Notes under the pieces: model-generated
The model's database searches: none
The model's input: the letters and a program-made list of their open reading frames with translations, nothing else
What the model was told of the DNA's origin: nothing
Translations under genes and position numbers: made by a program
Assembly: GCF_900637185.1 (NCBI RefSeq)
Contig: NZ_LR134352.1
Coordinates: forward strand, 6,252,001-6,316,000
DNA length: 64,000 bases
From: Nocardia asteroides
GTDB lineage: Bacteria; Actinomycetota; Actinomycetes; Mycobacteriales; Mycobacteriaceae
Direction: 5' to 3'
Shown: piece by piece, positions 20,566-34,346 of the stretch
Position numbering within the stretch: position 1 is the stretch's first letter
Layout of the letters: the number at the start of each line of letters is the position of its first letter

Positions 20566-21822
20566 TCAATTCCAGGTGTCCTCGAGCATGCGCGGCTTGC
20601 AGGCCTGCCAGGCACCGGCCAGCAGCACCGCCAGCGCCACCAGCAGCATGCCGAACGGGGCCAGCCAGCCACCGGTCCAGGTGTGCAGCATGCCGAACAG
20701 CAACGGCCCGACACAGGCCACGGCGTAGCCGACACCCTGGGTGAAACCCGACAGCGCGGCCGAACCGTGCGGGGTGTGGGTGCGCAGGTTGATCAGGGTC
20801 AGCGCCATCGGGAAGGTGCTCGGGCCCAGGCCCAGCAGCACCACCCACAGCACCGGCGCGCCCATCGGGGCGATCAGCAGACCGGCGAAGGCGACGACGA
20901 ACAGCACCATGCAGCCGACGACCACCGGGAACGGGTTGCGCATCCGCGACACCACGGTCGGGGCGGCCAGCGCGGGAATCAGCCCCATCAGCGCGAACAG
21001 CCCGACCATGCTGCCGCCGAAGGCCGCGCTCGCGCCCGCGTCGGACAGGATCTTGGGCAGCCAGGCGAACATCGCGTAGGTGGTCAGCGAGGTCATGCCG
21101 AACATGGCGGCCATGCCCCAGGCCACCGGGGAGCGCCACACCTTGCCGGGAGCCGCGGCGGGCTCGGCCGGCAGCGCGGTGACATCGTGCAGGTCACGAC
21201 CCTTGCGGTCGCGCAGCACGAACAGCCACGGCACGGCGGCGGCGAAGCCGACGATCGCCCACACACCCATCGAGATGCGCCACCCGTGATCGTGGGCCAG
21301 CGGCACCGCGACGAACGCGGGCACCACGGTGCTGATCTGCACCATCACGATGTAGAGGGAGCTGATGGCGGCCAACTGGTCGGCGAAATACCGCTTGACC
21401 AGCGGCGGGATCACCACGTTGCCGATGCCCATGCCGAGCAGCACCACCGCGGAGAAGGCCAGCAGCTCGCCGGTGCCCGCGGCGAACGCGCGGGTCAGCG
21501 AGCCCAGACCGGCCAGCAGCATCGCCAGCAGCACCGTGCGCTCGAGCCCGTACCGGCGCACCAGCAGCGGCGCGATCAGCCCCGCGACCGCGAACATCGC
21601 GGTGGGCAGCATGCCGAACACCCCGACCACCGCGGTCCCGTACCCGATGTCGGCGCCGATCTCCTCGGCCAGCGGACTGAACGCGGTGACCGCGGCGCGC
21701 AGGGTGAGGGCCGACATGACAATGGCCGCCAGCACGAGCAGGCGGCCTTCGATCAGCGCGCGGGTGCGGCTGCGGGTGCCCACATCGGGCACGGAGCTGG
21801 TATCGGGGAGGGTCGCGGTCAC
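20566..21822 (-). CDS. MFS transporter, CynX/NimT family
   Basis: A 418-residue major facilitator with twelve membrane segments. The N-terminal pattern (LTLRAAVTAFSPLAEEIGADIGY) and the early LPTAMFAVAGLIAPLLVRRYGLERTVLLA block are typical for the CynX/NimT group (cyanate, 2-nitroimidazole and related organic anions). The GTG at 21822 is chosen because TATGAT lies 6 nt upstream on the minus strand, which also fits a leaderless mRNA. It is divergent from a FadR-type regulator that probably controls it. The substrate is unknown. Confidence 0.88.
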   Translation of the reverse strand: MTATLPDTSSVPDVGTRSRTRALIEGRLLVLAAIVMSALTLRAAVTAFSPLAEEIGADIGYGTAVVGVFGMLPTAMFAVAGLIAPLLVRRYGLERTVLLAMLLAGLGSLTRAFAAGTGELLAFSAVVLLGMGIGNVVIPPLVKRYFADQLAAISSLYIVMVQISTVVPAFVAVPLAHDHGWRISMGVWAIVGFAAAVPWLFVLRDRKGRDLHDVTALPAEPAAAPGKVWRSPVAWGMAAMFGMTSLTTYAMFAWLPKILSDAGASAAFGGSMVGLFALMGLIPALAAPTVVSRMRNPFPVVVGCMVLFVVAFAGLLIAPMGAPVLWVVLLGLGPSTFPMALTLINLRTHTPHGSAALSGFTQGVGYAVACVGPLLFGMLHTWTGGWLAPFGMLLVALAVLLAGAWQACKPRMLEDTWN

Positions 21823-21841
21823 CGACAAATCATAGGATGAC

Positions 21842-21852
21842 CCGATGATCGG
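21842..21852. promoter_or_regulatory. Palindrome in the CynX-FadR divergent promoter
   Basis: CCGATGATCGG is a perfect palindrome around a central base, lying midway between the -10 boxes of the two divergent genes (TATGAT minus strand, 21829-21834; TACCCT plus strand, 21875-21880). Outside it, CAAATCAT (21826-21833) and ATGATTTG (21857-21864) form a second, wider inverted pair. A FadR/GntR dimer is the likely ligand. Confidence 0.45.
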
Positions 21853-21886
21853 TGCAATGATTTGTGAGCAGCGGTACCCTTGCGAC

Positions 21887-22558
21887 GTGCAACCCGTCCG
21901 GCGAACCAGCCTCATCGCCCAGGTCACCGAGCAGCTTCGGGCCGAAATCCGTTCCGGCCGTTGGCCGACCGGCCAACGGATCCCGACCGAACCCGAGCTC
22001 ACCGAGCTCACCGGGACCGGGCGCAACACCGTGCGCGAGGCCGTGCAGGCCCTCGTGCACGCGGGCATGCTCGAACGCCGTCAGGGCTCGGGCACCTATG
22101 TGATCGCCACCTCCGAGGTGGGCGGCACCCTGGCCAAGTACTTCGCCGACGCCGAGGAGCGCGACATCCTCGAGCTACGCCAGGCCCTCGACACCACCGC
22201 GGCCGGTCTGGCCGCGCGCCGCCGCGACGACACCGACATCGCCAATCTGCGCAGGCTGCTGGCCGAGCGCAGCAACCGCAACTGGACCGAACCGGACCCG
22301 GTCGCCATCGCCGCCGACGTGGAGCTGCACCGGGCGATCGTCGTCGCCAGCCACAACGCGGTATATCTGGAGTTCTACGATTCGCTGCTGCCGATCATCG
22401 AGCACGTGATCCACGCGCGCACCGCCCGTTCCGACGACGCCTACGACACCGAGCACGCCGAACTCGTGCAGGCCGTCATCGACGGCGACGCCGACAAGGC
22501 CATGCAGGCGACCCGCTGCTTCCTCGGTTCGCTCATCGCCGAGTATCCGGATCGCTGA
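21887..22558 (+). CDS. GntR-family regulator, FadR subfamily
   Basis: A 223-residue regulator. The N-terminal winged helix spans about residues 1-72 (IAQVTEQLRAEIRSGRWPTG, then ELTELTGTGRNTVREAVQAL and RQGSGTYV), and the C-terminal helical FCD domain (about 85-215) has the family metal-binding pattern with D/H residues (DVELHRAIVVASHN ... LIEHV-type helix). The GTG at 21887 follows TACCCT (21875-21880) by 6 nt. It is divergent from the CynX/NimT gene and presumably represses it in response to a small carboxylate or anion. Confidence 0.92.
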   Translation: MQPVRRTSLIAQVTEQLRAEIRSGRWPTGQRIPTEPELTELTGTGRNTVREAVQALVHAGMLERRQGSGTYVIATSEVGGTLAKYFADAEERDILELRQALDTTAAGLAARRRDDTDIANLRRLLAERSNRNWTEPDPVAIAADVELHRAIVVASHNAVYLEFYDSLLPIIEHVIHARTARSDDAYDTEHAELVQAVIDGDADKAMQATRCFLGSLIAEYPDR

Positions 22559-22594
22559 CACCGGAACCTTCTCTACGGCCAGGTAACCGAGCAG

Positions 22595-22620
22595 TCACCG
22601 ACCGGCGCTTCGGTCGGTGA
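22595..22620. terminator. Hairpin after the FadR-type gene
   Basis: A 10-bp perfect stem (TCACCGACCG and its complement) with a 6-nt loop begins 36 bp after the regulator stop. No T-run follows. It may end the regulator transcript or lie in the promoter region of the second NarK gene. Confidence 0.4.
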
Positions 22621-22763
22621 GCCCGAGTTGCCGGGAACGTCACCTGAAGCCACGGTCACGCAACAACCGGCTCCTACCGTTTTATCTCGACCCCGCAAGG
22701 AACGCATCGCCGCCGGCGCCCGACGACGATGCGCCTCCGCAGAGCCCGATCGAGAGGAAGCCG

Positions 22764-24248
22764 ATGACCGCGATCGCCGCCACCGGCCAGGAGACGGAAT
22801 CCCCGTCCTTCGAATATCAGAAGAAGGGCCGCTGGCTCACCCAGTGGAACCCCGACAATCCGGCGTTCTGGGAAGCGGGCGGCAAGCAGACCGCCCGCAA
22901 GAACCTCTGGTTCTCCGTCTTCGCCGAGAACCTGGGCTTCAGCATCTGGGTGATCTGGGGTTCCATCGTCACCGCCATGGGTTCGGCCGGTTTCGAGTTC
23001 CTGGCCGGCCTGGGCAAGGGCAACCCGACCGCGGTCAGCAACGCGCTGCTGCTGACCTCCGTCCCGACCCTGGTCGGCGCCGCCCTGCGCATCCCCTACA
23101 CCTTCGCCGTCCCGAAGTTCGGTGGACGCGCCTTCACCGCGTTCAGCGCGGCGATGCTGTTCATCCCGACCCTGGGCATCATCTACTTCGTCAACCAGCC
23201 GGGCACCCCGATGTGGGTGTTCCTGGTGCTGGCCTCGCTGGCCGGTGTCGGTGGCGGTAACTTCTCGTCCTCGATGGCCAACATCTCGTTCTTCTTCCCC
23301 GAGGGCAAGAAGGGCGCAGCGCTGGGCCTCAACGCCGCGGGCGGCAACCTCGGTGTCGCGCAGACCCAGCTGATCGTGCCGCTGCTGATCACCCTGGGCA
23401 CGCACGTGATGGCCAAGGACGCGGGCGGTTACCGCTTCGGCATCACCCTGGCCGTGCTGTTCTGGCTGCCGTTCATCGCGGTCGCCACCCTCGGCGCGCT
23501 GTACTTCATGGACTCGGTCACCGAGGCCAAGTCCGACGGCAAGTCCTACAAGCTGGCCCTGACCAACCGGCACACCTGGGTGATGGCGTTCCTCTACATC
23601 GGCACGTTCGGCTCGTTCATCGGCTTCTCCTTCGCCTTCCCGACGCTGATCAAGGCCACCTTCCCGGACCTGGCCAAGATCGGCTGGATCACCACCCTGG
23701 GCAACCTGGCCTTCCTCGGCGCGCTGGTGGGTTCGTTCAGCCGCCCGTTCGGTGGCTGGGTGGCCGACAAGGTCGGCGGCGGCGCCAAGATCACCGTCTA
23801 TGTCTTCGGCGGCATGTCGATCGCGGTCGCGTTCATCGTGCTCGCGGTGGACCTCAAGAGCTTCCCGCTCTACCTGGCCGCGTTCCTGGCGCTGTTCGTG
23901 CTGGCGGGCATCGGCAACGGTTCCACCTACCGGATGATCCCGTCGATCTTCAACGCCACCGCCAAGAAGTACGCCGCCGAACACGGCATCGACATCGCCG
24001 AAGCCGCCATCTCGGCCAAGCGCCAGGCCGGTGCCGCGATCGGTGTGATCGGCGCGGTGGGCGCCGCGGGCGGGTTCGTGGTCCAGCAGGCGCTGCGCCT
24101 GTCCAATGTCCACCTCAAGACCATGGCCCCCGCCTTCTGGGCCTACGCCGCGGTGTTCCTGGTGATGGCGGCGGTCACCTGGTGGTGCTACCTGCGCTCC
24201 AGCTTCGCCACCGACCGGGTCCCCTCGCTGGCCTACGCCAGCGTCTGA
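22764..24248 (+). CDS. Nitrate/nitrite transporter, NarK type (second copy)
   Basis: A 494-residue major facilitator, paralogue of the NarK at 18839-20299. It shares the opening motif (AFWEAGGKQTARKNLWFSVF) and the nitrate signature LAGVGGGNFSSSMANISFFFP, with twelve membrane segments and an inserted loop of about 25 residues before the tenth (YAAEHGIDIAEAAISAKRQ). The ATG at 22764 follows GAGAGGAAG. It stands alone, so it may work under other conditions, for example nitrite export. A strong terminator follows at 24267-24310. Confidence 0.92.
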   Translation: MTAIAATGQETESPSFEYQKKGRWLTQWNPDNPAFWEAGGKQTARKNLWFSVFAENLGFSIWVIWGSIVTAMGSAGFEFLAGLGKGNPTAVSNALLLTSVPTLVGAALRIPYTFAVPKFGGRAFTAFSAAMLFIPTLGIIYFVNQPGTPMWVFLVLASLAGVGGGNFSSSMANISFFFPEGKKGAALGLNAAGGNLGVAQTQLIVPLLITLGTHVMAKDAGGYRFGITLAVLFWLPFIAVATLGALYFMDSVTEAKSDGKSYKLALTNRHTWVMAFLYIGTFGSFIGFSFAFPTLIKATFPDLAKIGWITTLGNLAFLGALVGSFSRPFGGWVADKVGGGAKITVYVFGGMSIAVAFIVLAVDLKSFPLYLAAFLALFVLAGIGNGSTYRMIPSIFNATAKKYAAEHGIDIAEAAISAKRQAGAAIGVIGAVGAAGGFVVQQALRLSNVHLKTMAPAFWAYAAVFLVMAAVTWWCYLRSSFATDRVPSLAYASV

Positions 24249-24410: not shown

Positions 24411-24944
24411 TTGGAATCCTCGAACGAGCAGGCAGAGCTACGATTCCGATCCGCCACCGTCGACGATCTGGCCGCCATCGCCGAGCTCGAATCGCACGAA
24501 TTCATGCCGCTGGCCTATCCCTATTTCGCGCTGCGGCAATTGTTCGATATCCACGGTTCGCAATGGGTGGTCGCCGATCTGGCAGGTTCGATTTGCGGGT
24601 ACGCGCTGGTGGCCGTCGGCAGGCGGTCGGCGTGGCTGATCGGGCTGGCCGTGTCGGCGCGTTTCCAGGGGCGCGGACTCGGCCGGTCGCTGCTCGACCG
24701 CGCGGTGGCCCGCTGCCGGTCCTCCCAGGTGGAGGCCATCTTCATCACCGTGCGCCCGTCGAATGTGCCCGCCGCGAATCTGTACAAGGATTCCGGCTTC
24801 ACCTGGGTGGACCACGAGGACCAGTATTTCGGCGCCGGTGAACCACGAGATCTGCTGGTACACCGCATCACCCACGACTGGGCGGCCGCCGATCCGGATG
24901 ATCGGCGCTGGCACAAAGATCGCGGACCGGTCGACGACGGATGA
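24411..24944 (+). CDS. GNAT family N-acetyltransferase
   Basis: A 177-residue GNAT acetyltransferase. The acetyl-CoA motif A is VSARFQGRGLGRSLLDRAV (about residues 83-101, Q-x-x-G-x-G/A), and motif B is NVPAANLYKDSGF (about 118-130). The N-terminus (LRFRSATVDDLAAIAELESHEF) is the usual first strand and helix. The start is a TTG at 24411. It overlaps the next gene by 4 bp (ATGA), so the two are translationally coupled. The acceptor is unknown, possibly the partner protein. Confidence 0.88.
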   Translation: MESSNEQAELRFRSATVDDLAAIAELESHEFMPLAYPYFALRQLFDIHGSQWVVADLAGSICGYALVAVGRRSAWLIGLAVSARFQGRGLGRSLLDRAVARCRSSQVEAIFITVRPSNVPAANLYKDSGFTWVDHEDQYFGAGEPRDLLVHRITHDWAAADPDDRRWHKDRGPVDDG

Positions 24945-25798
24945 CCGAATACGCCGAGCACGACCGGCTGGGCGATTTCGTCGCCTCCAAGACCACCCTG
25001 ATCCGCAGGCACGCCGGGGCTTTCGCCGACGTGATCACCGATTTCCAGCGCGCGCCCGGAGCCGCCACCGAATACACGCTGCTCGACGAACTCAATCATC
25101 GCGTGGAACAGTTTCTCGCCGACTATGTTCCGCCGTCCTCGCGCCGGATCGGCGACAGCCTGGTCTTCGCCCACCTCTACCGCGACGCCGATCCCGACGT
25201 CCTCGACAACGCGGGTCGCGAACTGGCCTGCGAGACGGTGCTCACCGCGCTGTTCGCCGCCGAGGTGGAATTCCGCGGCCCGCTGCGGCTGAGCCGCACC
25301 CAGTCGGCCCTGCTCGCCGAGCGGTACGAGGAACTGGGCGAACAACTCTCGGCGCACAAGCTGCCCGCGCACGCGGCCCTGGCCTACCGCCAGGCCTACC
25401 GATTGCACACCATCACCGAGAACCCGCGCGGCCAGGACCGGTGCGGGCTGAACCTGGCCCGCGCCAAGACCAGGGCGCGCAACCCACGCTGGCGGCGGGC
25501 GCCCGGTATCGCCTCGGACCTGCTGTGCGGCTACGGGTATCGGCCGTTCCTGCTGCTGGCCTGGATCGCGGTGGAGATCGCGCTGTTCGTGCTGGTCTTC
25601 TACCTGTCGAGCACCGGGATCGGGGTCGCCACCGCCACCCGGGTGGGGCTGCTCAATTTCCTGAACCCGGTCGGCACCGAGGGGTTGCCACCGCTGAGCA
25701 CCTTCGCCCAGACCACGCTGATCGTGGAGTCCTACGCCGGTATCGTGTCGACCTCGGTGTTCTTCGCGCTGCTGGTGCGCCAGCTGTTCCGGCTGTGA
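24941..25798 (+). CDS. Membrane protein resembling a two-helix ion channel without filter
   Basis: A 285-residue protein. Residues 1-190 are soluble and helical, with TPR-like parts (HAALAYRQAYRLH). Then comes a GYGYRPFLLLAW motif, a hydrophobic helix (about 200-222), a loop of about 30 residues and a last helix VESYAGIVSTSVFFALLVRQLF. This order (GYGYRP, helix, pore loop, final E-x-x-G-I-x-x-T helix) is that of bacterial two-helix ion-channel proteins, but the pore loop has no T-x-G-x-G/D selectivity filter. It is coupled to the GNAT gene and ends next to the convergent SCO2521-like gene with no gap. Confidence 0.65.
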   Translation: MTEYAEHDRLGDFVASKTTLIRRHAGAFADVITDFQRAPGAATEYTLLDELNHRVEQFLADYVPPSSRRIGDSLVFAHLYRDADPDVLDNAGRELACETVLTALFAAEVEFRGPLRLSRTQSALLAERYEELGEQLSAHKLPAHAALAYRQAYRLHTITENPRGQDRCGLNLARAKTRARNPRWRRAPGIASDLLCGYGYRPFLLLAWIAVEIALFVLVFYLSSTGIGVATATRVGLLNFLNPVGTEGLPPLSTFAQTTLIVESYAGIVSTSVFFALLVRQLFRL

Positions 25799-26803
25799 TC
25801 ACCACCGGGCCTGGCTGCGGGTCAGCGCACTGAGGGTGGCCACCGCGACCCGGTCGCGCAGCTGGCCGATGCGCGAGTTCCACTGCACCGTGAACCCGGG
25901 ATCGGCCTCGAGCCCCACCCACAGGCCGCGCAGTGGCGGCGGGGTGAACGCCCCGGGCAGCCACAGGTGCACCAGATGCTCCAGCAGCGGGGTGAGCACC
26001 TGCGCGGGCGAGCTGCGCGACAGCTCGGCCATCTCGGCCTCGTCGATCACCTCGGTGAGCACCGTGAGCAGCCAGTCGTGCAGGGCCAGGTCCTCGCAGA
26101 AGCCCTGCACCGCCGCCAGTTCCACCTCGTCGCCGACGACCACCGAGGCGAGCCGGGTCTCCTCGTCGAGCAACACGAACGACATGCTCGGCGCCGCACC
26201 GTGTTCCACCCTGGCCGCCCAGCGCAGCCGGGACGCGCCGGTCTGGATCGGCGGCTTCTGGTTCAGCATGGGATCGGTGCGCACCCGCATGTGCAGGCGG
26301 GCCGCGATCGCACCGGGGTCGAGGGTGGCGACGGTGGGGTCGCCGGTGCCGAGGAACCCCTCGACGAGCAGACTGCCGACATCGGCCGGTATCCGGGTGA
26401 GGATCTCGACGATGCCGATCCGCCCGAGGTAGTGCCCCCAGCCGCGCCGGTGGGTCCCCTCCCCCGCGGTGACCGCCGCCATGGCCGAGCTCTGCAGGAT
26501 CCGCCCACCGGTGACGACGGCGTGCGCGGCGACCGTGCCCACCGCCCGCACCCGCGCGCGATTCGGCGTCGCGAGCCTGCAGTCGACCCCTTCAGCGATC
26601 ACCGGGGACTGTGCCCAGCTGACCGGCCGTTCCCGCGATTGCACGCGACGGCCGCGAACCAGGGTCAGCAATTCCGCCGCCGACCCGCGGCTCAGCGCCG
26701 CCGACTCCGGAAGCAGGCCGGTGCGCACTTCGCCCAGAAGTGCCAGCGGACCACCGCTGCGTTGCATTGCTGCAGCGTAACTGGTTTGCGCAGGTGAGGG
26801 CAT
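25799..26803 (-). CDS. SCO2521 family protein
   Basis: A 334-residue cytoplasmic protein that I assign to the SCO2521 family, mainly from the gene neighbourhood and general composition. It has an N-terminal stretch GGPLALLGEVRTGLLPESAA, a middle with conserved-looking VLLDEETRLASVVVGDEVELAAVQGFCEDLALHDWL (written here in parts: VLLDEETRLASVVVG and FCEDLALHDWL) and a tryptophan-rich end (GLWVGLEADPGFTVQW). No enzyme motif is seen. It is the last gene of a four-gene minus-strand group and starts 4 bp after the SCO2522-like gene. Function unknown. Confidence 0.7.
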   Translation of the reverse strand: MPSPAQTSYAAAMQRSGGPLALLGEVRTGLLPESAALSRGSAAELLTLVRGRRVQSRERPVSWAQSPVIAEGVDCRLATPNRARVRAVGTVAAHAVVTGGRILQSSAMAAVTAGEGTHRRGWGHYLGRIGIVEILTRIPADVGSLLVEGFLGTGDPTVATLDPGAIAARLHMRVRTDPMLNQKPPIQTGASRLRWAARVEHGAAPSMSFVLLDEETRLASVVVGDEVELAAVQGFCEDLALHDWLLTVLTEVIDEAEMAELSRSSPAQVLTPLLEHLVHLWLPGAFTPPPLRGLWVGLEADPGFTVQWNSRIGQLRDRVAVATLSALTRSQARW

Positions 26804-26807
26804 GCGA

Positions 26808-27815
26808 TCAGACGGAGCTGAGGAAGTGGTGCGAGAGCCGGTCGGTGACGTCGTCGGTCATCGTGATCCCCTGCTCCCGGGCGCGGCGGGCGATCAGCGC
26901 GACGACGGCCGGGTCGGGCTGCACATGGTCGAGGATCATCCGCACCGCGTGCTCGATTCCCACGTACCGCTGCGGCAGCAGCGACAGCGAGCGGAACGCG
27001 GCGAAGGGCGCGGCGCGCTCCTGCAACCGGATCACGCTCGGGAAATCGCTCCAGCGGGCGGGCCATTCGTGTCCCGGCGCCCAGTACTCCGCGTCCACGA
27101 CGGCCTTGCCCTCGTAGCGCAGCATCCCCAGGCGCAGCAGCTGCCACACCGACGCCAGGAACGGACACGACCACAGCACGTCCTGGCCGGCGCCGCGGTC
27201 GCGCCACATCTCGACGTCGAGGAAGATGGAGTGGTTGCGCGCGGCGAACTCCACCGGCGGCCGGTAGCCGACCTCCATGGCCTGGCCCGGCTCGTGATCG
27301 CTGGAACGATCGCCGTTGCACAGCCAGCCCGACTCCGCGGTCGGCGGCCTGCGCCCGGTGCTGCCGGGCGCGGGCTCGGCGACGATGGAATCGGCCACCA
27401 TCTGCGCCAGCGGGATCCGGGGTTCGTCGTGCTGGCGGCGCAGGTACTTGCTGCACCCGGCCTCGCTGGCCAGGTAGTCGATCCGGACGCCGCAGTCGCC
27501 GGCGATGCGCAGCAGTTTGGGCACGATGCGGCGGGGGTCGGCGTCGGTCTGGAAGTAGTCGTCGAGCAGGAAGCAGGTGCTCACCCGCACCCGGGACGGG
27601 CCACCGGCGACCTCGCCGAATTCCCGCCTGGCGATATCGGTGAAGGCCTCGAGCAGCGGGGCGACCCGGCGGAACTGGGCCTCGATGGCCGCTTCGCCGT
27701 TGAGCAGATCCGACATGTAGAAATGCCCGACCTCGATCGACAGGTGCGCGAGCGGAACATCCTCGACTCGAACGGACGCCGTCGACTCGGCGTAGACGGC
27801 GCCACCCACAACCAC
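26808..27815 (-). CDS. SCO2522 family protein
   Basis: A 335-residue protein assigned to the SCO2522 family. The start LAHLSIEVGHFYMSDLL and the internal VSTCFLLDDYFQTD and DYLASEAGCSKYL look like a conserved core with acidic and aromatic residues at strand ends, which could be an active site, but no known enzyme family is evident. The GTG at 27815 has AAGGGG upstream. A perfect 20-bp palindrome with TAGAAT lies 24 bp before the start, so the gene probably has its own promoter. Co-transcribed with the SCO2521-like gene. Confidence 0.7.
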   Translation of the reverse strand: MVVGGAVYAESTASVRVEDVPLAHLSIEVGHFYMSDLLNGEAAIEAQFRRVAPLLEAFTDIARREFGEVAGGPSRVRVSTCFLLDDYFQTDADPRRIVPKLLRIAGDCGVRIDYLASEAGCSKYLRRQHDEPRIPLAQMVADSIVAEPAPGSTGRRPPTAESGWLCNGDRSSDHEPGQAMEVGYRPPVEFAARNHSIFLDVEMWRDRGAGQDVLWSCPFLASVWQLLRLGMLRYEGKAVVDAEYWAPGHEWPARWSDFPSVIRLQERAAPFAAFRSLSLLPQRYVGIEHAVRMILDHVQPDPAVVALIARRAREQGITMTDDVTDRLSHHFLSSV

Positions 27816-27838
27816 TGCCCCTTGTCAACCCGTCGGGA

Positions 27839-27858
27839 TAGAATCGCTGGCGATTCTA
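27839..27858. promoter_or_regulatory. 20-bp palindrome over the SCO2522-like promoter
   Basis: TAGAATCGC-TG-GCGATTCTA is an inverted repeat with perfect 9-bp arms. On the minus strand its first six bases, TAGAAT, are a good -10 box about 38 bp before the GTG start at 27815. The palindrome therefore would cover the promoter and start point, as operators do. No regulator gene is adjacent. Confidence 0.55.
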
Positions 27859-27958
27859 ACCACCACGTGGGCAGTGCACAGCCGGAACACGCCCGGTCGA
27901 ATTTTCCCCTCCCGCAGTCCTTTTCGCAACCTTTGCCGGGATTGTGGCTTGTGCCCGG

Positions 27959-28879
27959 CTACACCCGGACCCAGGTGGCGCGATCCCACAGCCGTCGCGC
28001 CAGTTCCTCGAAGGCGTCGACGGTGGCGCGGTTGGCGATGCCCGCGTTCACGTCCGCGTCGAGCACGATCTGCTCGCGCCATTGCAGCACCGGTTCCACC
28101 GGCGTCTCCCCCAGCAACGCGCCCGCGCCGAGCCGGTACTCCGCGGCCAGCGAGCGCAGCGCGTCGTTCTGCTTGAGCAGCCAGGCGGCCTGCGGTCCGC
28201 CGCTGGCCGCGTGCTCGTCGGTGACGCGCGGAACGGCGGTGCGCACGAAGCGGATTCGCGCGAGCAGGTCGTCGGGCGCGTAACCGAGTTCGACGCCGGT
28301 CTTCAACAGGCCCTTGGGCCCGTGCACCAAGCCCTGGGCGGCCATCAGATGCTGGCGGGTCCAGCGGTGATAGACCAGCCAGCACACCTCCTTGTCCGGC
28401 ATGTCCTGCGGCCTGGTCGCCTCCAGCGCGATCTGCATGGCCACCGATCGGCCCGCGCTCAGGTCCACGATCACGACCTTGTAGGTGCTGTCCAGGTCGA
28501 GCAGCAGCTCGCGGCAGCGGCGCACCACCTGGGTGTCGTTGGCCGACATGGCCTCGCCGCCGCCCTCGTCGCCGGGCAGCAGCACCAGCTTGCCGCCGCG
28601 CGAGCGCTGGCTGCGCAGCGCGTCGCGGTTGGTGTTGGCCCGCACGTCGATGCGCTGCGGCAGGGTGTTGTGACCGCGCAGATACGAGTGCAGGCCGTTG
28701 CCCGGCTGGGTGCCACGTTCGACCGCGCTGATCTCGAACAGCGCGCCCGCGGTGGGCGAGCCGAAGTCGAAGTCCAGGTAGGCCGTGCTGATGCCGCGCA
28801 AACCCAGCCGGTAGGCCAGGTTGCAGCTGGTCACCGACCGCCCGGTGCCGCCCTTGTCCGAGGTGGCGAAAACGATCAT
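27959..28879 (-). CDS. SCO2523 family variant P-loop (MinD/ParA-like) protein
   Basis: A 306-residue ATPase-like protein. It opens with MIVFATSDKGGTGRSVTSCN, a deviant Walker A motif of the MinD/ParA/CobQ type (K-G-G-T-G-R-S in place of K-G-G-x-G-K-T/S): the signature lysine is present but the second lysine is arginine. The strand LDFDFGSPTAG follows, like the switch I region, and VVIVDLSAGRSV is at the Walker B place. It starts 4 bp after the SCO2524-like gene. Whether it hydrolyses ATP is open. It is the recognisable core of this unexplained gene group. Confidence 0.8.
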   Translation of the reverse strand: MIVFATSDKGGTGRSVTSCNLAYRLGLRGISTAYLDFDFGSPTAGALFEISAVERGTQPGNGLHSYLRGHNTLPQRIDVRANTNRDALRSQRSRGGKLVLLPGDEGGGEAMSANDTQVVRRCRELLLDLDSTYKVVIVDLSAGRSVAMQIALEATRPQDMPDKEVCWLVYHRWTRQHLMAAQGLVHGPKGLLKTGVELGYAPDDLLARIRFVRTAVPRVTDEHAASGGPQAAWLLKQNDALRSLAAEYRLGAGALLGETPVEPVLQWREQIVLDADVNAGIANRATVDAFEELARRLWDRATWVRV

Positions 28880-28883
28880 GTGA

Positions 28884-30740
28884 TCAGGTGCTCCTCATCG
28901 CGTCGAGACGAGCGTAGGCGAGCCGGTCGAGTTCGATCAGGGCCGCCGAGGCCAGCGTGAACGCCGTTCCCGGTTGCAGATTCACCACGTCGCGCGCCCT
29001 GGCCAGCTGCTGCTCGACGCCGTCGAGGGCGATGCGGTTGGCCGAGGTGTCCTCGACGCTGACATTGAGCATCTCCTGGTTCAGCAGGTGCTCGGCCTCG
29101 TTGAGCAGCTCGACCGCGCGCACGACCATGGCGGGCGACCGCAACGGCGCCTCCCGGTAGGTGCGGTCGGCGGTGACCAGGCATTCGATGACTCGCTCGG
29201 TCATGTACCAGGACGGCAGGGTCTGACCCGCCCGCGCCGCGGCGCCGAAGGCCGCGCCGGGGTCGTCCCACAGGCCCGCGGCGTCGCCCTCGGTGATCAT
29301 GCGCAGGTCGAGGTGGTCCATCACCTTCTTGGCCAGCTCCATCAGCCGGTCGCGCGCGGTGATGTTGCCGGACAGGCGGGCCGCCTGCAGACTCCGCTTG
29401 AGCAGCACCGGCGCGAAGTCCGAGGCGATCCACTCCAGCCGGGGACCGCCGCCCTCCACGAGTTCGCTGCCGCGCAATGTCATCCGGACACCGGGGTGGT
29501 GCAGCGACACCGACGGGTCGTCCTGGGTGGGTCTGCGGATGATGCGGCCGCGCCGGGCCAGCTCGTCGAAGATGCCGATCGCGCGGGTGAGGTCGTCGTC
29601 GGAGGCGGTGCGGGCCACCAGTTCCTGGATCAGCACCGCCGACACGATGAGGGAGAAGTAGTCGGACTCCTCGCCGTCGGAGGTGCGCCACGGAATGTCC
29701 TCCAGCGGCCAGGTGCCGCTGCCGAACCGCGCGACCGTGGCCCAGTAGCGCTGGGTGATGTCCCAGCGGATGCGCAGCGCCTCGGCCAGGCGGTACTGGG
29801 TGTCGTCGAGCAGGTCGAGCTCTCTGGTGCGCTGGGAGAGCACGTCGTTGATGCCGTCGAGCGCGGTGATGGTGAAGTACAGGTAGGGCCGGGGGTCGGC
29901 GTAGCCGACGCTGGAACCGATCGCGTCGGGCACGAAGTCCACCGGGTCGGCACCCTGCACCACGCCCCAGCTCCAGCCGCACTCGAACAGCAGATCCTCG
30001 TCGTCGAGTTCGGATTCCGGCGCCCGGCCCAGGGTGACGTCGTTGCGCAGCCGGGCCCTGACCCGGTCCAGGCTGCGCGAGACCGCGTCCACGACCACCT
30101 TCTCGGGCTGTCCCGACTGGTTGAGCATGCCCAGCATCGCCTTGCCCGAGGGCGAACGCGGCGAGGCCGTGTTGACCACGAAACTGCGCACGAGGCCGGT
30201 CATCGCGGCCGTGAGCCGGGTGCTCAGACCCGTACTGAGCTCGGCGATCCTGGCGCTGACATCCTTGCGCCGTTCGGTGCGCGCCCAGCGGTCGAAGACC
30301 CGCGCGAAACCGAGCGCCGCGATGCACAGCGTCACCGACATGGAGTAGCCGTCCACCACCTCCAGGGTGTGCTGGGCGGCTGTCGGCTCCCGATCGGCGG
30401 TGGCGCGCAGATAGCTGCCCGCGTCGAACCGTGGCAGCCCGTCGGGATCGGTGTTGCGGGCCAGGTACTCCTCGACCAGACCGAGCACCGTGATCCCGAT
30501 CCTGGCCTGCCCGCCGAAGGCCTCGAGCACGATCTTGACGTCGTCCGACATCGCCTCCGGCCGGTCCAGCGCGAAGCTCTCGATCTCGGTCGCCGGATAC
30601 AGCAGGCACAGCAGCTGTTCGGAATCGCTGATCGAATTGGCGCCGAGCACACCGTCCCAATGCCATTTCTCGTCCCGGTAGCAGGCCGAGAGCATGGCGC
30701 TCCAAATATCCAGAATCTGTTGTCTGGGCTGGATTCTCAC
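28884..30740 (-). CDS. SCO2524 family protein
   Basis: A 618-residue soluble, largely helical protein assigned to the SCO2524 family by neighbourhood. It begins VRIQPRQQILDIWSAMLSACY and has many aromatic and charged helices (for example ARVFDRWARTERRKDVSARI), with no motif known to me. The GTG at 30740 has GAGGA 9 nt upstream; a TTG three codons earlier is the other option but overlaps that site. It is the first gene of the cluster, 4 bp before the P-loop gene, so they should be made in fixed ratio. The function is unknown. Confidence 0.7.
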   Translation of the reverse strand: MRIQPRQQILDIWSAMLSACYRDEKWHWDGVLGANSISDSEQLLCLLYPATEIESFALDRPEAMSDDVKIVLEAFGGQARIGITVLGLVEEYLARNTDPDGLPRFDAGSYLRATADREPTAAQHTLEVVDGYSMSVTLCIAALGFARVFDRWARTERRKDVSARIAELSTGLSTRLTAAMTGLVRSFVVNTASPRSPSGKAMLGMLNQSGQPEKVVVDAVSRSLDRVRARLRNDVTLGRAPESELDDEDLLFECGWSWGVVQGADPVDFVPDAIGSSVGYADPRPYLYFTITALDGINDVLSQRTRELDLLDDTQYRLAEALRIRWDITQRYWATVARFGSGTWPLEDIPWRTSDGEESDYFSLIVSAVLIQELVARTASDDDLTRAIGIFDELARRGRIIRRPTQDDPSVSLHHPGVRMTLRGSELVEGGGPRLEWIASDFAPVLLKRSLQAARLSGNITARDRLMELAKKVMDHLDLRMITEGDAAGLWDDPGAAFGAAARAGQTLPSWYMTERVIECLVTADRTYREAPLRSPAMVVRAVELLNEAEHLLNQEMLNVSVEDTSANRIALDGVEQQLARARDVVNLQPGTAFTLASAALIELDRLAYARLDAMRST

Positions 30741-30911
30741 CCGCAGCAATCCTCACCGCTCGTGACGGGCCGCGGTGGGTCCCCCGGTCCGGCGCAGGAC
30801 ACATGGCGGCGATGCTCGCTGAAGATAGCACGTCACCTGCCAGGAAACGTTGGGTCTCAACGGATTTGAAACCACATCCGACCCATCGGTCACGATCGGC
30901 GCAATTCGCCC

Positions 30912-31763
30912 TTACAGCGCCAAACGGACCATGTCGGCCGTGCGGGCCAAACCGGGAAACGCCTCGGGCGTCGACCGCGGGTGCAGCGCGTGCACCGCCA
31001 GCCGGAACATCAACGCGCGCAACAACATCTGCGGCCACTCCGGGAGTGAGGACCAGCGGTCGAGCAGTCCGTCGTCACCGCCGCCCCACGCCAGCGCGTC
31101 CACCACGACCACCCCGGCCGCCCACGCGGCGGGCCGCCAGTACGGAGTGATGTCGGTGAGACCGGGCGTGTGCGCGCCGGCGAACAGCACGGTGCCGAAC
31201 AGATCGCCGTGCACCAGCTGATCGGGACTGCGGATCGGCTTGCGCAGCGTGGACAGCTGACCGATCAGCTCGAGGCTGCGCTGCCCGTCCGGCGACGCGG
31301 TGATCGGCACGCCACCGGCCCGCAGGCTGCGCAGCGGAATCGTCTCCCACGCCGCCCGATCCGCGGCCACGAACACATCGACGTCGACCCACGGCGCCAC
31401 CGGCGGCTGGACCAGGAACCGCGGACGTTCCAGCGTCGCCGTCGCCTTGTGCAGGCGCAGCGACACCGACACCACCTCGTCGTGCCGCGGCTCCGGCGCG
31501 CCGTCGACATAGGTGTCGGCCCGCCAGCCCGACACCACATACCGGCCGTCGGTGGCCCGCACCGGCCGCGCCACCCGCAGCCCGTCGACCGTCAGCGTCT
31601 CGCGCACCTTCGCCGACCACGCGGCCCGCGCATGATCGGCTACCGGACTCAGCACCACGTCACCCAGCCGCCAGCCGCCGTCCCAGTCACCGAGGGAGAC
31701 CGGTGTCACTTCGCGAAGCCCGAATGTGGCCCGCACATGCTCGGGAGGTTCGACTGAGGTCAC
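30912..31763 (-). CDS. TIGR02569 family protein, phosphotransferase-like
   Basis: A 283-residue protein of the actinobacterial TIGR02569 family, distantly related to aminoglycoside phosphotransferases. The kinase-like loop is LVHGDLFGTVLF (H-G-D-x5, with the usual N replaced) and it is followed by LTDITPYWRPAAWAAGVVVVD, where the metal-binding aspartate would lie. Activity is unproven. The GTG at 31763 follows TACGGT by 6 nt on the minus strand, as in leaderless mRNAs. In mycobacteria the same gene lies next to moeZ (Rv3205c-Rv3206c), as here. Confidence 0.85.
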   Translation of the reverse strand: MTSVEPPEHVRATFGLREVTPVSLGDWDGGWRLGDVVLSPVADHARAAWSAKVRETLTVDGLRVARPVRATDGRYVVSGWRADTYVDGAPEPRHDEVVSVSLRLHKATATLERPRFLVQPPVAPWVDVDVFVAADRAAWETIPLRSLRAGGVPITASPDGQRSLELIGQLSTLRKPIRSPDQLVHGDLFGTVLFAGAHTPGLTDITPYWRPAAWAAGVVVVDALAWGGGDDGLLDRWSSLPEWPQMLLRALMFRLAVHALHPRSTPEAFPGLARTADMVRLAL

Positions 31764-31874
31764 GGCCGTACCGTAACCCCGGTTTCACCCCCGGAGCCCG
31801 AAGGCACGCTGGCAACTCCACTTTGCGACCTCGCCGCAATCTTCGGCGAGGACCGCAACAGCGCAGCTACCCGA

Positions 31875-33056
31875 TCAGTACACCGGCAGCGACGGATCCA
31901 CCTGCTTGGCCCAGGCCACCACGCCGCCCTGCAGATGCGTGGCGTCGGCGAAACCGGCCCGCTTGAGCGCGGCCAGCGCCTCGGCCGAGCGGATACCGGT
32001 CTTGCAGTGCAGCACGATCGGCTTGTTCTGCGGCAGCTCGGCCAGCGCCTCACCGGACAGGATGCGGTCCTTCGGGATCAGCGTCGCGCCCTCGATGTGC
32101 ACGATGTCCCACTCCACCGGCTCACGGACATCGATCAGCTCGATCTTGTCCGCGTCGAGCAGATCCTTCAGCTCGGCCGCGGTGATCGTCGAGCCGGCCG
32201 CGGCGGCCATGCCTTCCTCCGAGACCACGCCGCAGAACGCCTCGTAGTCGATCAGCTCGGTGATCGGCTGACGCTCCGGATCGCGGCGCAGCTTGATGGT
32301 GCGGTAGTTCATGTCCAGTGCGTCGTAGACCATCAGCCGGCCCAGCAGCGTCTCACCGATGCCGGTGATCAGCTTGATCGCCTCGGTCACCATCACCGAA
32401 CCGATCGAGGCGCACAGCACGCCCAGCACGCCGCCCTCGGCGCAGGACGGGACCATGCCCGGCGGCGGGGCCTCCGGGTACAGGTCGCGGTAGTTGATGC
32501 CGCGGCCGTCGGGGGCGTCCTCCCAGAACACCGACACCTGGCCCTCGAAGCGGTAGATCGAACCCCACACGTAGGGCTTGCCCGCCAGCACCGCGGCGTC
32601 GTTGACCAGATAGCGGGTGGCGAAGTTGTCGGTGCCGTCGACGATCAGGTCGTACTCGCCGAACAGCTCGACCGCGTTGTCCGGCTCCAGGCGGATCTTG
32701 TGCAGCCGCACGTCGATCCCGGAATTGATCTCCAGGATCGAATCGCGGGCGCTGTCGGCCTTGGACCGGCCGATATCGGACTCGCCGTGGATGATCTGGC
32801 GCTGCAGATTCGACATGTCGACCTCGTCGAACTCGACGATGCCGAGCGTGCCGACACCGGCCGCGGCCAGGTACAGCAGCGCGGGCGAACCCAGCCCGCC
32901 TGCGCCGATCACGAGCACCTTGGCGTTCTTCAGGCGCTTCTGACCGTCGACGCCCAGATCGGGAATGATCAGGTGCCTGCTGTAGCGAGCGACCTCGTCC
33001 TTGGTCAGTTCCGCGGCCGGCTCCACGAGCGGCGGCAGGGACCCGTTGAATGACAC
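31875..33056 (-). CDS. moeZ: Adenylyltransferase/sulfurtransferase MoeZ
   Basis: A 393-residue fusion protein. The E1-like MoeB/ThiF domain (about residues 15-270) has the nucleotide motif VIGAGGLGSPALLYLAAAG, the R-x-x-R-like QRQIIHGESDIG stretch and the aspartate DGTDNFATRYLVND. The rhodanese domain (about 285-390) has the active loop HCKTGIRSAEAL with the persulfide cysteine. It adenylates and thiocarboxylates small sulfur carrier proteins for molybdopterin, thiamine or cysteine synthesis. The GTG at 33056 has AGGAG 7 nt upstream; reading further back would run through the hairpin at 33093-33182. Confidence 0.94.
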   Translation of the reverse strand: MSFNGSLPPLVEPAAELTKDEVARYSRHLIIPDLGVDGQKRLKNAKVLVIGAGGLGSPALLYLAAAGVGTLGIVEFDEVDMSNLQRQIIHGESDIGRSKADSARDSILEINSGIDVRLHKIRLEPDNAVELFGEYDLIVDGTDNFATRYLVNDAAVLAGKPYVWGSIYRFEGQVSVFWEDAPDGRGINYRDLYPEAPPPGMVPSCAEGGVLGVLCASIGSVMVTEAIKLITGIGETLLGRLMVYDALDMNYRTIKLRRDPERQPITELIDYEAFCGVVSEEGMAAAAGSTITAAELKDLLDADKIELIDVREPVEWDIVHIEGATLIPKDRILSGEALAELPQNKPIVLHCKTGIRSAEALAALKRAGFADATHLQGGVVAWAKQVDPSLPVY

Positions 33057-33092
33057 GTCAGAGCTCCTGTATCTATGGCGGCTGGCGCCGCG

Positions 33093-33182
33093 GGTTTTCG
33101 GCCTCGTGACCTCGCCGCCGAGGGGCGATTCTGCGGCTTCGCCGTTACGCCTCGCCCCTCGGCGGCGAGGCGGCCGAAAACC
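33093..33182. repeat. Two-step 90-bp inverted repeat upstream of moeZ
   Basis: Two nested perfect arms are seen. The outer arm is GGTTTTCGGCC (33093-33103) with its complement at 33172-33182; the inner arm is an 18-bp stem, 33111-33128 with 33152-33169 (CTCGCCGCCGAGGGGCGA and complement), around a 23-nt loop. It fills most of the gap between the DUF3152 gene stop and the moeZ start. It could end the first transcript, lie in the moeZ leader, or be a small mobile repeat. Confidence 0.8.
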
Positions 33183-33257
33183 GTGCGGGTTGGCAATGGT
33201 GACAACGTCGCCGGCCGCGGGGTTCTTCCCGTCCATGGTCGCGCATGGACGCGGGGC

Positions 33258-34346
33258 TCACCCCCTCGGGTACGGCCAGGGGTTGAAGCGGCAGGTCTTG
33301 CCGTCGGCGGGGACGACGCCGTGTGGGTCGAGGGTGGCGATGTCGTTGTTCTTGGTGCCGAAGGTCTGCTGCATCATGATCGGGGCGAGGCCGCCGTCGG
33401 TCTCGCAAGGCTGGTGGCCGTGGTAGCCGATGGCGTGGCCGACCTCGTGGTTGATCTGGTACTGCCGGTAGGAGCCGATGTCGCCGTCGAAGGCCAGCGC
33501 GCCGCGCACCCAGCGCACCTCCGACAGCACCACCCGGTCGATGTCGGCGTTGTAGCAGGACGAGTCGATCGGGATCTCGAAACCGCAGGCGGCGCGGGTG
33601 CTTTCGCGGGAGGTCAGCGAGAGCCGGAAGTCGGGGTCGCCCGTGTCGATGCGCTGGAAGGCGAAGCGCTGGTCGTGGATCCAGCTCTTGGGGTTGGCCA
33701 GGGTGGTCTCCACCATCTTGGCCACCGCGGCGTCGCCGCCGAAGGGGGCGGTGTCGATGCCGTCCTCCACCTCCACGGTGTAGCGGAACACGCGCTCGGT
33801 GCCGGTGCCCACCTGGGCGCCGGCGCCGGGCACCACGTGCCAGGTGCCCGCCGCGCGGTCGACGTAGTCGCCGCCCTCGGGCAGGGCGCCCAGCGGCAGG
33901 TCGGCGGGGAACTTGCCGTCGCCCGGCGGCGCGCCGATGATGCCGGTGCGCGCCACCTCGGTGCTGAACGCGCCGAAACCGGGGTCGGTCGGGGCCGGGG
34001 CCGGTCCGGTCCGCAGCGCGTCGACGATCACCAGCACGGTCACCGCCAGCAACACCGGCAACGCGTAGGCCCGCCAGCCATAGCGGCGGACGAACCGGCC
34101 GATCGCGCTCTGCTTCTTGGCCTCGCGCTGCGGGCTGCGCTGACGGCCGAGGTCGGCGTCGGTGGGATTCCAGTGGGCGCGCAGCGGCTGCCGTGATCGG
34201 TCGGCGGGCTGATACAGCCCGAGCGGGTCGTAGACCTGCAGTTCTCGCCCTTCTGGCGCCGACGTCACAGAACCGGACTCGGTGGGTTGCGTGGGGCGAG
34301 CGACATCGCGCCCGCCGCCGGATGGTCGTTCCGGTCGGTCGGTCAC
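33258..34346 (-). CDS. DUF3152 protein, membrane-anchored zinc-peptidase-like
   Basis: A 362-residue protein. After a cytoplasmic N-terminus of about 95 residues there is one membrane segment (about 97-115, AYALPVLLAVTVLVIVDAL), so the rest is outside the cell. The C-terminal domain holds the H-E-x-x-H zinc motif, HEVGHAIGYHGHQPC, with the third histidine in the extended H-E-x-x-H-x-x-G-x-x-H pattern typical of metzincin-like peptidases, and PIMMQQT after it, like a Met-turn. In mycobacteria Rv3207c is the counterpart. The GTG at 34346 gives the start; the substrate is unknown. Confidence 0.88.
   Translation of the reverse strand: MTDRPERPSGGGRDVARPTQPTESGSVTSAPEGRELQVYDPLGLYQPADRSRQPLRAHWNPTDADLGRQRSPQREAKKQSAIGRFVRRYGWRAYALPVLLAVTVLVIVDALRTGPAPAPTDPGFGAFSTEVARTGIIGAPPGDGKFPADLPLGALPEGGDYVDRAAGTWHVVPGAGAQVGTGTERVFRYTVEVEDGIDTAPFGGDAAVAKMVETTLANPKSWIHDQRFAFQRIDTGDPDFRLSLTSRESTRAACGFEIPIDSSCYNADIDRVVLSEVRWVRGALAFDGDIGSYRQYQINHEVGHAIGYHGHQPCETDGGLAPIMMQQTFGTKNNDIATLDPHGVVPADGKTCRFNPWPYPRG

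Follow-up and report, generated by a model that had tools for sequence, protein, structure and literature searches.

What do four contiguous genes of no assigned function contribute to Nocardia asteroides, and do they form a unit in themselves or part of something larger? The question is raised by a 64,000-nucleotide stretch of contig NZ_LR134352.1 (positions 6,252,001 to 6,316,000; hereafter the window, to which coordinates given without a genome or locus label refer), in which an initial annotation made from the sequence alone described a four-gene system of the SCO2521-SCO2524 type with a variant P-loop protein. The comparisons reported here place the four genes at the core of a larger cassette, and the reading preferred, tentatively, is that they may serve an enzymatic pathway, acting on a small molecule or adding a tag, with a membrane partner. 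The core genes are:

28884..30740, minus strand: SCO2524-family protein, 618 aa, modelled as an (alpha/alpha)6 toroid plus C-terminal helices
27959..28879, minus strand: SCO2523-family MinD/ParA-like protein, 306 aa, P-loop KGGTGRS (NF040564, 422.9 bits; CbiA, 25.7 bits)
26808..27815, minus strand: SCO2522-family protein, 335 aa, modelled as a class I aminoacyl-tRNA synthetase-like Rossmann (HUP) core without conserved KMSKS
25799..26803, minus strand: SCO2521-family protein, 334 aa (NF040565, 343 bits)

The assignment of these genes to the four families stands, as all four proteins exceed the curated cut-offs of their NCBIfam equivalog models (SCO2521, 343 bits against 150; SCO2522, 439.7 against 200; SCO2523, 422.9 against 200; SCO2524, 810 against 300), and no SCO25xx family appears among the matches listed for five other window proteins scanned (for one protein, the best 25 of 33). 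Within the core, Pfam at E <= 0.01 recognised the P-loop protein alone, through CbiA. The gene order and the 4-bp gaps within each pair (SCO2524-SCO2523 and SCO2522-SCO2521) were likewise as first described, with 143 bp separating SCO2523 from SCO2522. The GTG start of SCO2524 at 30740 (618 aa) matches the conserved N-terminus M-x-I-Q-P-R better than the start of the longer open reading frame (ORF) at 30749. A methyltransferase of the SCO2525 type, already reported missing from the window, was not found there with hidden Markov models, and an NF040568 profile search of the window's whole genome was also empty (the same search gave matches in 3 of 11 genomes).

The arginine P-loop and the predicted folds

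The Walker A motif of the MinD/ParA-like protein had been read correctly as KGGTGRS, and its lysine-to-arginine change proves to be family-wide. SCO2523 sequences were taken from 93 loci, comprising 80 named loci (the best 80 of 406 relatives in a named-genome scan with an alignment of 17 SCO2524 sequences), 12 further loci (20 fetched, less eight repeats with identical SCO2524) and the window; 17 further copies came from the window's genus, Nocardia. All 110 sequences carry KGGxGR[ST], keeping the signature lysine (the first K of KGGxGK) and having arginine for the catalytic second lysine, which makes the arginine characteristic of the family rather than a defect of the window's genome. The switch region DFDFGSPT is invariant in 41 aligned sequences (of 81 available), one unaligned sequence reading DYDLGSPT, while the Walker B pattern was unmatched in 64 of 109 sequences and was not used as evidence. 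The KGGVGR-motif variant AAA ATPase model (NF047398), whose motif name shares the P-loop arginine, matches SCO2523 at E 1.4e-8, but its 35.3 bits fall below the cut-off of 90. The available part of PMC7159879 reports MinD/ParA-like domains, predicted to be inactive, from conflict systems of multicellular actinobacteria; these domains, possibly the same group as NF047398, are likened to SCO2523 by description. SCO2523 may act as a nucleotide-bound switch or scaffold rather than as a fast ATPase.

For the other three proteins the initial annotation could name no fold. This still holds for SCO2521, for which a profile search of PDB sequences gave nothing at E <= 5 and a Pfam scan of 70 members gave no domain in more than two (taken as chance), but SCO2522 and SCO2524 now have modelled folds. 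The SCO2522 model aligns with the class I synthetases ArgRS, CysRS and MetRS and with MshC over 175-213 residues at 3.1-4.4 Å (among the matches listed), and is taken as a stripped-down class I synthetase Rossmann core. SCO2522 shares this predicted core with these enzymes but differs from them in having no conserved KMSKS, no clear HIGH and no detectable sequence similarity. The pattern K[MLFI]S[KTG] occurs anywhere in just 1 of 79 members and is not found in the consensus; H-x-G-H occurs anywhere in two of the 79. All 79 have E-x-G-H, but the model places its residues E28, G30 and H31 inside strand 1 (residues 23-33), which does not clearly correspond to the position of HIGH, and its interpretation as a HIGH motif was dropped. 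A PDB sequence search with the SCO2522 profile gave nothing at E <= 5, and no Pfam domain was found in more than seven of the 79 members (GlfT2_domain3, best E 0.0038; taken as chance).

As conserved KMSKS is lacking, SCO2522 probably does not charge tRNA in the normal way, and it may instead transfer or ligate a group of aminoacyl or similar type, something that cyclodipeptide synthases and MshC each do after their own fashion. Cyclodipeptide synthases have lost both synthetase signatures and are a precedent for a domain as strongly derived as that predicted for SCO2522. They are, according to the available part of PMC2922099, a derived class I synthetase domain with non-ribosomal chemistry; SCO2522, with 335 aa and its own invariant residues, differs from them and is likened to them by description. 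No cyclodipeptide synthase is among the fold matches listed for SCO2522, though absence from the lists of the fold searches excludes no family. The window's genome has its own MshC and ArgRS, plus a weaker second match that is taken for CysRS. It also carries an argS-like fragment with in-frame stops (G000:C1:2800703-2801509) besides the full-length argS at C1:2065491, and in one other locus (L159, G583:C7:23738-25306) argS lies about 1 kb from SCO2521, possibly by coincidence.

SCO2524 is modelled as an (alpha/alpha)6 toroid of six hairpins, a fold also seen among sugar 2-epimerases and glycosidases. Its identity to the N-acylglucosamine 2-epimerase (AGE)/cellobiose 2-epimerase superfamily, GH76 and unsaturated glucuronyl hydrolase is 5-12% (among the matches listed), and it has about 85 extra C-terminal residues compared with the AGE-superfamily toroids. 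Possible counterparts of the catalytic histidines of AGE 2-epimerases are H414, which is invariant (64/64), and H476, nearly so (63/64). In a PDB sequence search with the SCO2524 profile the best match was YacP at E 0.036, with two antibody chains above 1, and a Pfam scan of 17 members gave no domain in more than three (DUF6829, best E 0.029; taken as chance). SCO2524 might bind or reshape an acceptor, perhaps a sugar-like one.

The cassette beyond the four core genes

The description as a four-gene system was right in that the genes are real and linked, but the unit is bigger, as two adjoining plus-strand genes had been overlooked:

24411..24944, plus strand: GNAT acetyltransferase, 177 aa (PF00583, 62.4 bits; RimI-like, TIGR01575 71.5 bits, below the cut-off of 86.4)
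24941..25798, plus strand: membrane protein 'CH', 285 aa, with a soluble N-terminus of about 200 residues, two predicted transmembrane (TM) segments (204-222 and 261-279) and a pore-loop-like stretch between them

These genes (24411-25798) belong to the same unit as the core four. They overlap by 4 bp, the membrane-protein gene is convergent with SCO2521 with 0 bp between their stop codons, and in the 19 loci of the genus with a complete core (the window, L140, L142 and 16 of a separate set of 20 regions fetched from the genus) the core is accompanied by the membrane protein in 16 and by the GNAT in 15. The TM segments come from a crude hydropathy scan, which also flags one borderline segment in the GNAT. 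The stretch between them reads G-x-G-D in 14 of 18 aligned members (18 of 19, L141 being left out) and GTEG in the window. Compared with potassium-channel pores (from 18 of 30 fetched loci), the window-type protein gave hhalign values of 8.8% and 13.6% with the GYGD register as expected, which is no more than suggestive of a potassium-channel-like pore; PF07885 had no match in the three window-type proteins scanned.

Over the 93 loci, counting a gene when a match within 8 kb covered 60% or more of its profile, the slot of the membrane protein is taken by a DUF6879-like protein in 77 loci and by the window-type protein in six, with both in none and neither in ten (in L048 the DUF6879-like match is cut off at the contig end and hence uncounted). 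In the other families the slot protein has a DUF6879-like C-terminus (two were scanned and matched PF21806 at 22.5 and 24.9 bits, against a cut-off of 23.9), and the four examined for TM segments have one or two by prediction. Either membrane protein could sense, export or execute the response of the system. The SCO2525 methyltransferase is present in 53 of the loci and the GNAT in 28, and DAO-type FAD oxidases adjoin many. The GNAT in the window, and elsewhere the NNMT-like methyltransferase and the DAO-type oxidases, might tailor or neutralise an amine-bearing product. In five Plantactinospora/Micromonospora loci (L061, L063, L072, L073 and L084) SCO2522 and SCO2521 are separated by 4.5-4.7 kb, occupied on the opposite strand by a DUF4062-NACHT-HEAT protein in L063 (L063:13720-18624) and by an ORF of 1450-1519 aa in the other four. 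A ribosomally synthesised and post-translationally modified peptide (RiPP) precursor inside the core was also considered and is unlikely, because the core genes abut.

The window shares all four core families with the S. coelicolor SCO2521-SCO2526 locus (NF040564-NF040568), and its core order is that of the fetched Streptomyces loci (S. coelicolor itself not among them). A GNAT is found in both, on the plus strand beside SCO2521 in the window but divergent from SCO2525 in the Streptomyces loci; in contrast to these, the window is without the SCO2525 methyltransferase and the DUF6879-like protein, and has the two-TM protein of another family instead. In its available part, PMC11472566 places an operon sco2521-sco2526 under HupS control and, citing Gehring 2004, describes SCO2525 as needed for normal growth, while excerpts of PMC6344877 and PMC3017869 give SCO2525 a morphogenetic role and S-adenosylmethionine (SAM)-dependent methyltransferase identity, respectively; the accessible portion of PMC4255298 does not mention the SCO252x genes. 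A literature search on SCO2521-2525 found SCO2521 and SCO2525 named and SCO2522-2524 not, one on DUF6879 and KGGVGR found no paper, and neither the family models nor the literature searched gave a function for the four core proteins.

Linkage, distribution and descent

Since every one of the 93 loci was chosen for SCO2524, the counts tell what accompanies that gene: SCO2523 in 93, SCO2522 in 91 and SCO2521 in 90, the shortfalls being two loci at contig ends (L048, L093) and one split match (L067). In the 106 loci with all four genes, those of the window's genus included and these three left out, SCO2524 and SCO2523 lie within 50 bp of each other in 105 and SCO2523 and SCO2522 in 100, while SCO2521 is on the strand of the core in 77 and on the opposite strand in 29. 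The linkage survey called for by the initial annotation thus finds the core together in the 93 loci, but SCO2522 without SCO2523 in 2 of 59 genomes of the genus; across several actinobacterial families linkage of the core is strong, not absolute. As to the spacing in the window, the 143-bp gap holds an inverted repeat, AGAATCGC-CA-GCGATTCT (27838-27859), of which L147 has an imperfect version ahead of SCO2522; elsewhere this gap exceeds 100 bp in L047 and L049 only, with another gene intervening there.

Counting the window's own genome, SCO2522 is present in 4 of 198 genomes of a phylum sample and in 43 of the 59 Nocardia genomes, SCO2524 in 37 of 394 genomes and 7 of 137 genera of a class sample, and SCO2523 above its cut-off in 45 of 99 relatives. 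Within the genus, SCO2522 and SCO2523 occur together in 41 genomes, SCO2522 alone in two (G608, G613) and neither in 16, and there was no match in the 19 listed genomes from other genera of the window's own family. Named matches (best 80 of 406) are from Frankia, Microbispora, Planotetraspora, Actinoplanes and kin, Streptomyces, Kitasatospora, Kibdelosporangium and others; one of the cassettes (L079, Sphaerisporangium sp. TRM90804) is carried by a contig that its title describes as a plasmid.

In a tree of 106 SCO2524 sequences (built by a quick method with SH-aLRT as its only support; L143, L048, L093 and L067 not included), the 20 rows that carry the window-type membrane protein all fall within a single clade of 23 rows (SH-aLRT 100). 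This clade holds the window's genus, Solihabitans, Candidatus Frankia meridionalis and a genome of the same family as that Frankia (G313), apart from the other Frankia rows, and would accord with a variant that arose once and was transferred between three families. Repeated swapping of the two membrane proteins as modules, as their mutual exclusion might suggest, is weakened as an explanation because the tree is consistent with a single origin. Six of the 20 regions fetched from the genus share a chromosomal site, where the cassette proteins are 45-71% identical to those of the window in four of the six genomes and the flanks 71-95%; the other two (L147, L157) show no such contrast.

Weighing the explanations

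Where the initial annotation proposed a sorting, positioning or modification apparatus, modification alone gains support: SCO2522 is modelled with a synthetase-like fold and SCO2524 as a toroid resembling sugar epimerases, and genes for a GNAT, a methyltransferase and FAD oxidases are linked to the core. No support for sorting was found, and positioning is left with the MinD/ParA kinship. Several observations weigh against an enzymatic pathway. A shared fold alone shows no function, and at E <= 0.001 Foldseek gave no match for either the SCO2522 or the SCO2524 model. With hhalign, SCO2522 scored 0.4% against MshC and 0.2% against ArgRS (reference profiles from 16 of 30 and 16 of 25 fetched loci, respectively) and 0.6% against an unrelated control, and MshC-like or ArgRS-like homology was not found, the profile comparison being no better than that control. 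Complement C3/C5 and squalene-hopene cyclases have the toroid fold as well, which makes it less than specific for sugars. The tailoring genes are inconstant, the window having neither the methyltransferase nor the DUF6879-like gene and the GNAT being found in 28 of the 93 loci. The core can also be split, as 4 of the 20 further genus regions (L151, L153, L160 and L161; the 20 being hand-picked from 49 SCO2522 matches, favouring high scorers and two-copy genomes) carry SCO2522 without intact SCO2523 and SCO2524.

The main and serious rival, though on balance improbable, is a biological-conflict system of multicellular actinobacteria, for phage defence or cell death, in which the core would act as the sensor of invasion and the effector would be either the exchangeable membrane protein or a NACHT protein encoded nearby. 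It explains the patchiness (43 of the 59 Nocardia genomes), the divergence of the cassette from its flanks at the shared site (45-71% against 71-95% in four of the six genomes) and the exchangeable slot (77 loci with one membrane protein, six with the other, none with both), and would suit the NACHT protein in one of the five loci with a 4.5-4.7 kb gap, the plasmid-titled contig and the predicted inactive MinD/ParA-like domains described, in the accessible portion of PMC7159879, for actinobacterial conflict systems. However, L079 aside, the plasmid and phage collections do not support it (neither the 72,556 plasmid records nor the 50,697 phage records contain a match to the window's SCO2522), and nor does PADLOC, in which nine cassette proteins gave no convincing match (two at E 0.002-0.003 to candidate models). 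Moreover, the exchange of membrane protein is consistent with a single evolutionary event rather than repeated shuffling, and a HupS-controlled operon with a member needed for normal growth, as the available part of PMC11472566 has it, reads more like housekeeping or development.

A positioning or polarity apparatus of hyphal cells, with SCO2523 as MinD/ParA switch and the others as cargo or adaptors, is the least probable of the explanations weighed here. The kinship of SCO2523 speaks for it, as do the named matches in Streptomyces, Frankia, Microbispora and Actinoplanes, all mycelial or sporulating genera, against none in the 19 listed genomes from other genera of the window's family; a morphogenetic role is also cited for SCO2525 in the portion of PMC6344877 available. 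The arginine in all 110 P-loops speaks against the usual ATPase cycle, however, two partners (SCO2522 and SCO2524) have enzyme-like modelled folds, and the gene families identified as linked comprise acetyltransferases, methyltransferases, oxidases and membrane proteins but no cytoskeletal or DNA-segregation genes. Quite unlikely, if slightly less so, is that the target is a macromolecule (tRNA, protein or cell-wall precursor) and not a free small molecule, with SCO2522 attaching an amino acid to the target in the manner of GluQ-RS with tRNA. The synthetase-like model of SCO2522 would suit this, and a RimI-like GNAT suits a protein or peptide amine, but the Pfam scans of SCO2521, SCO2524 and SCO2522 members show no RNA- or protein-binding domain, and 335 residues would leave little room for a tRNA-binding appendage.

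The preferred reading of an enzymatic pathway can be drawn further into a bolder and rather doubtful form: a hitherto unrecognised pathway in mycelial actinobacteria, whose basis would be class I synthetase domains working outside translation and forming a third lineage of that sort, after MshC-type paralogues and cyclodipeptide synthases. Together with a sugar-epimerase-like toroid and an arginine-P-loop MinD-like switch, these domains would make or attach an aminoacyl-type product, which would act via an exchangeable small membrane protein, possibly a channel. The core is conserved over several filamentous actinobacterial families including Streptomyces, and the S. coelicolor operon has a member needed for normal growth (PMC11472566, in the part available). 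The two fold assignments make this anonymous operon testable, as SCO2522 can be assayed for nucleotide and amino-acid binding, SCO2524 for sugar binding and SCO2523 for binding a nucleotide but not turning it over; the exchangeable membrane protein offers a handle on the output of the system.

Some loci depart from the usual arrangement. L155 carries two complete cores in tandem, with the membrane protein and the GNAT once each, upstream of one copy, and L105 has a second SCO2525, a second SCO2524 and extra DUF6879-like matches upstream of a complete cassette. In the reduced genus loci SCO2521 is kept in L153 and L160 and the GNAT in L151, L153 and L161. The flanks of the cassette in the window (20566-24248 and 30912-34346) look ordinary, encoding MFS transporters (one of them nitrate/nitrite-like, though it scores under the cut-off of the model), MoeZ, a DUF3152 protein and an ORF of 283 aa that has no Pfam match.

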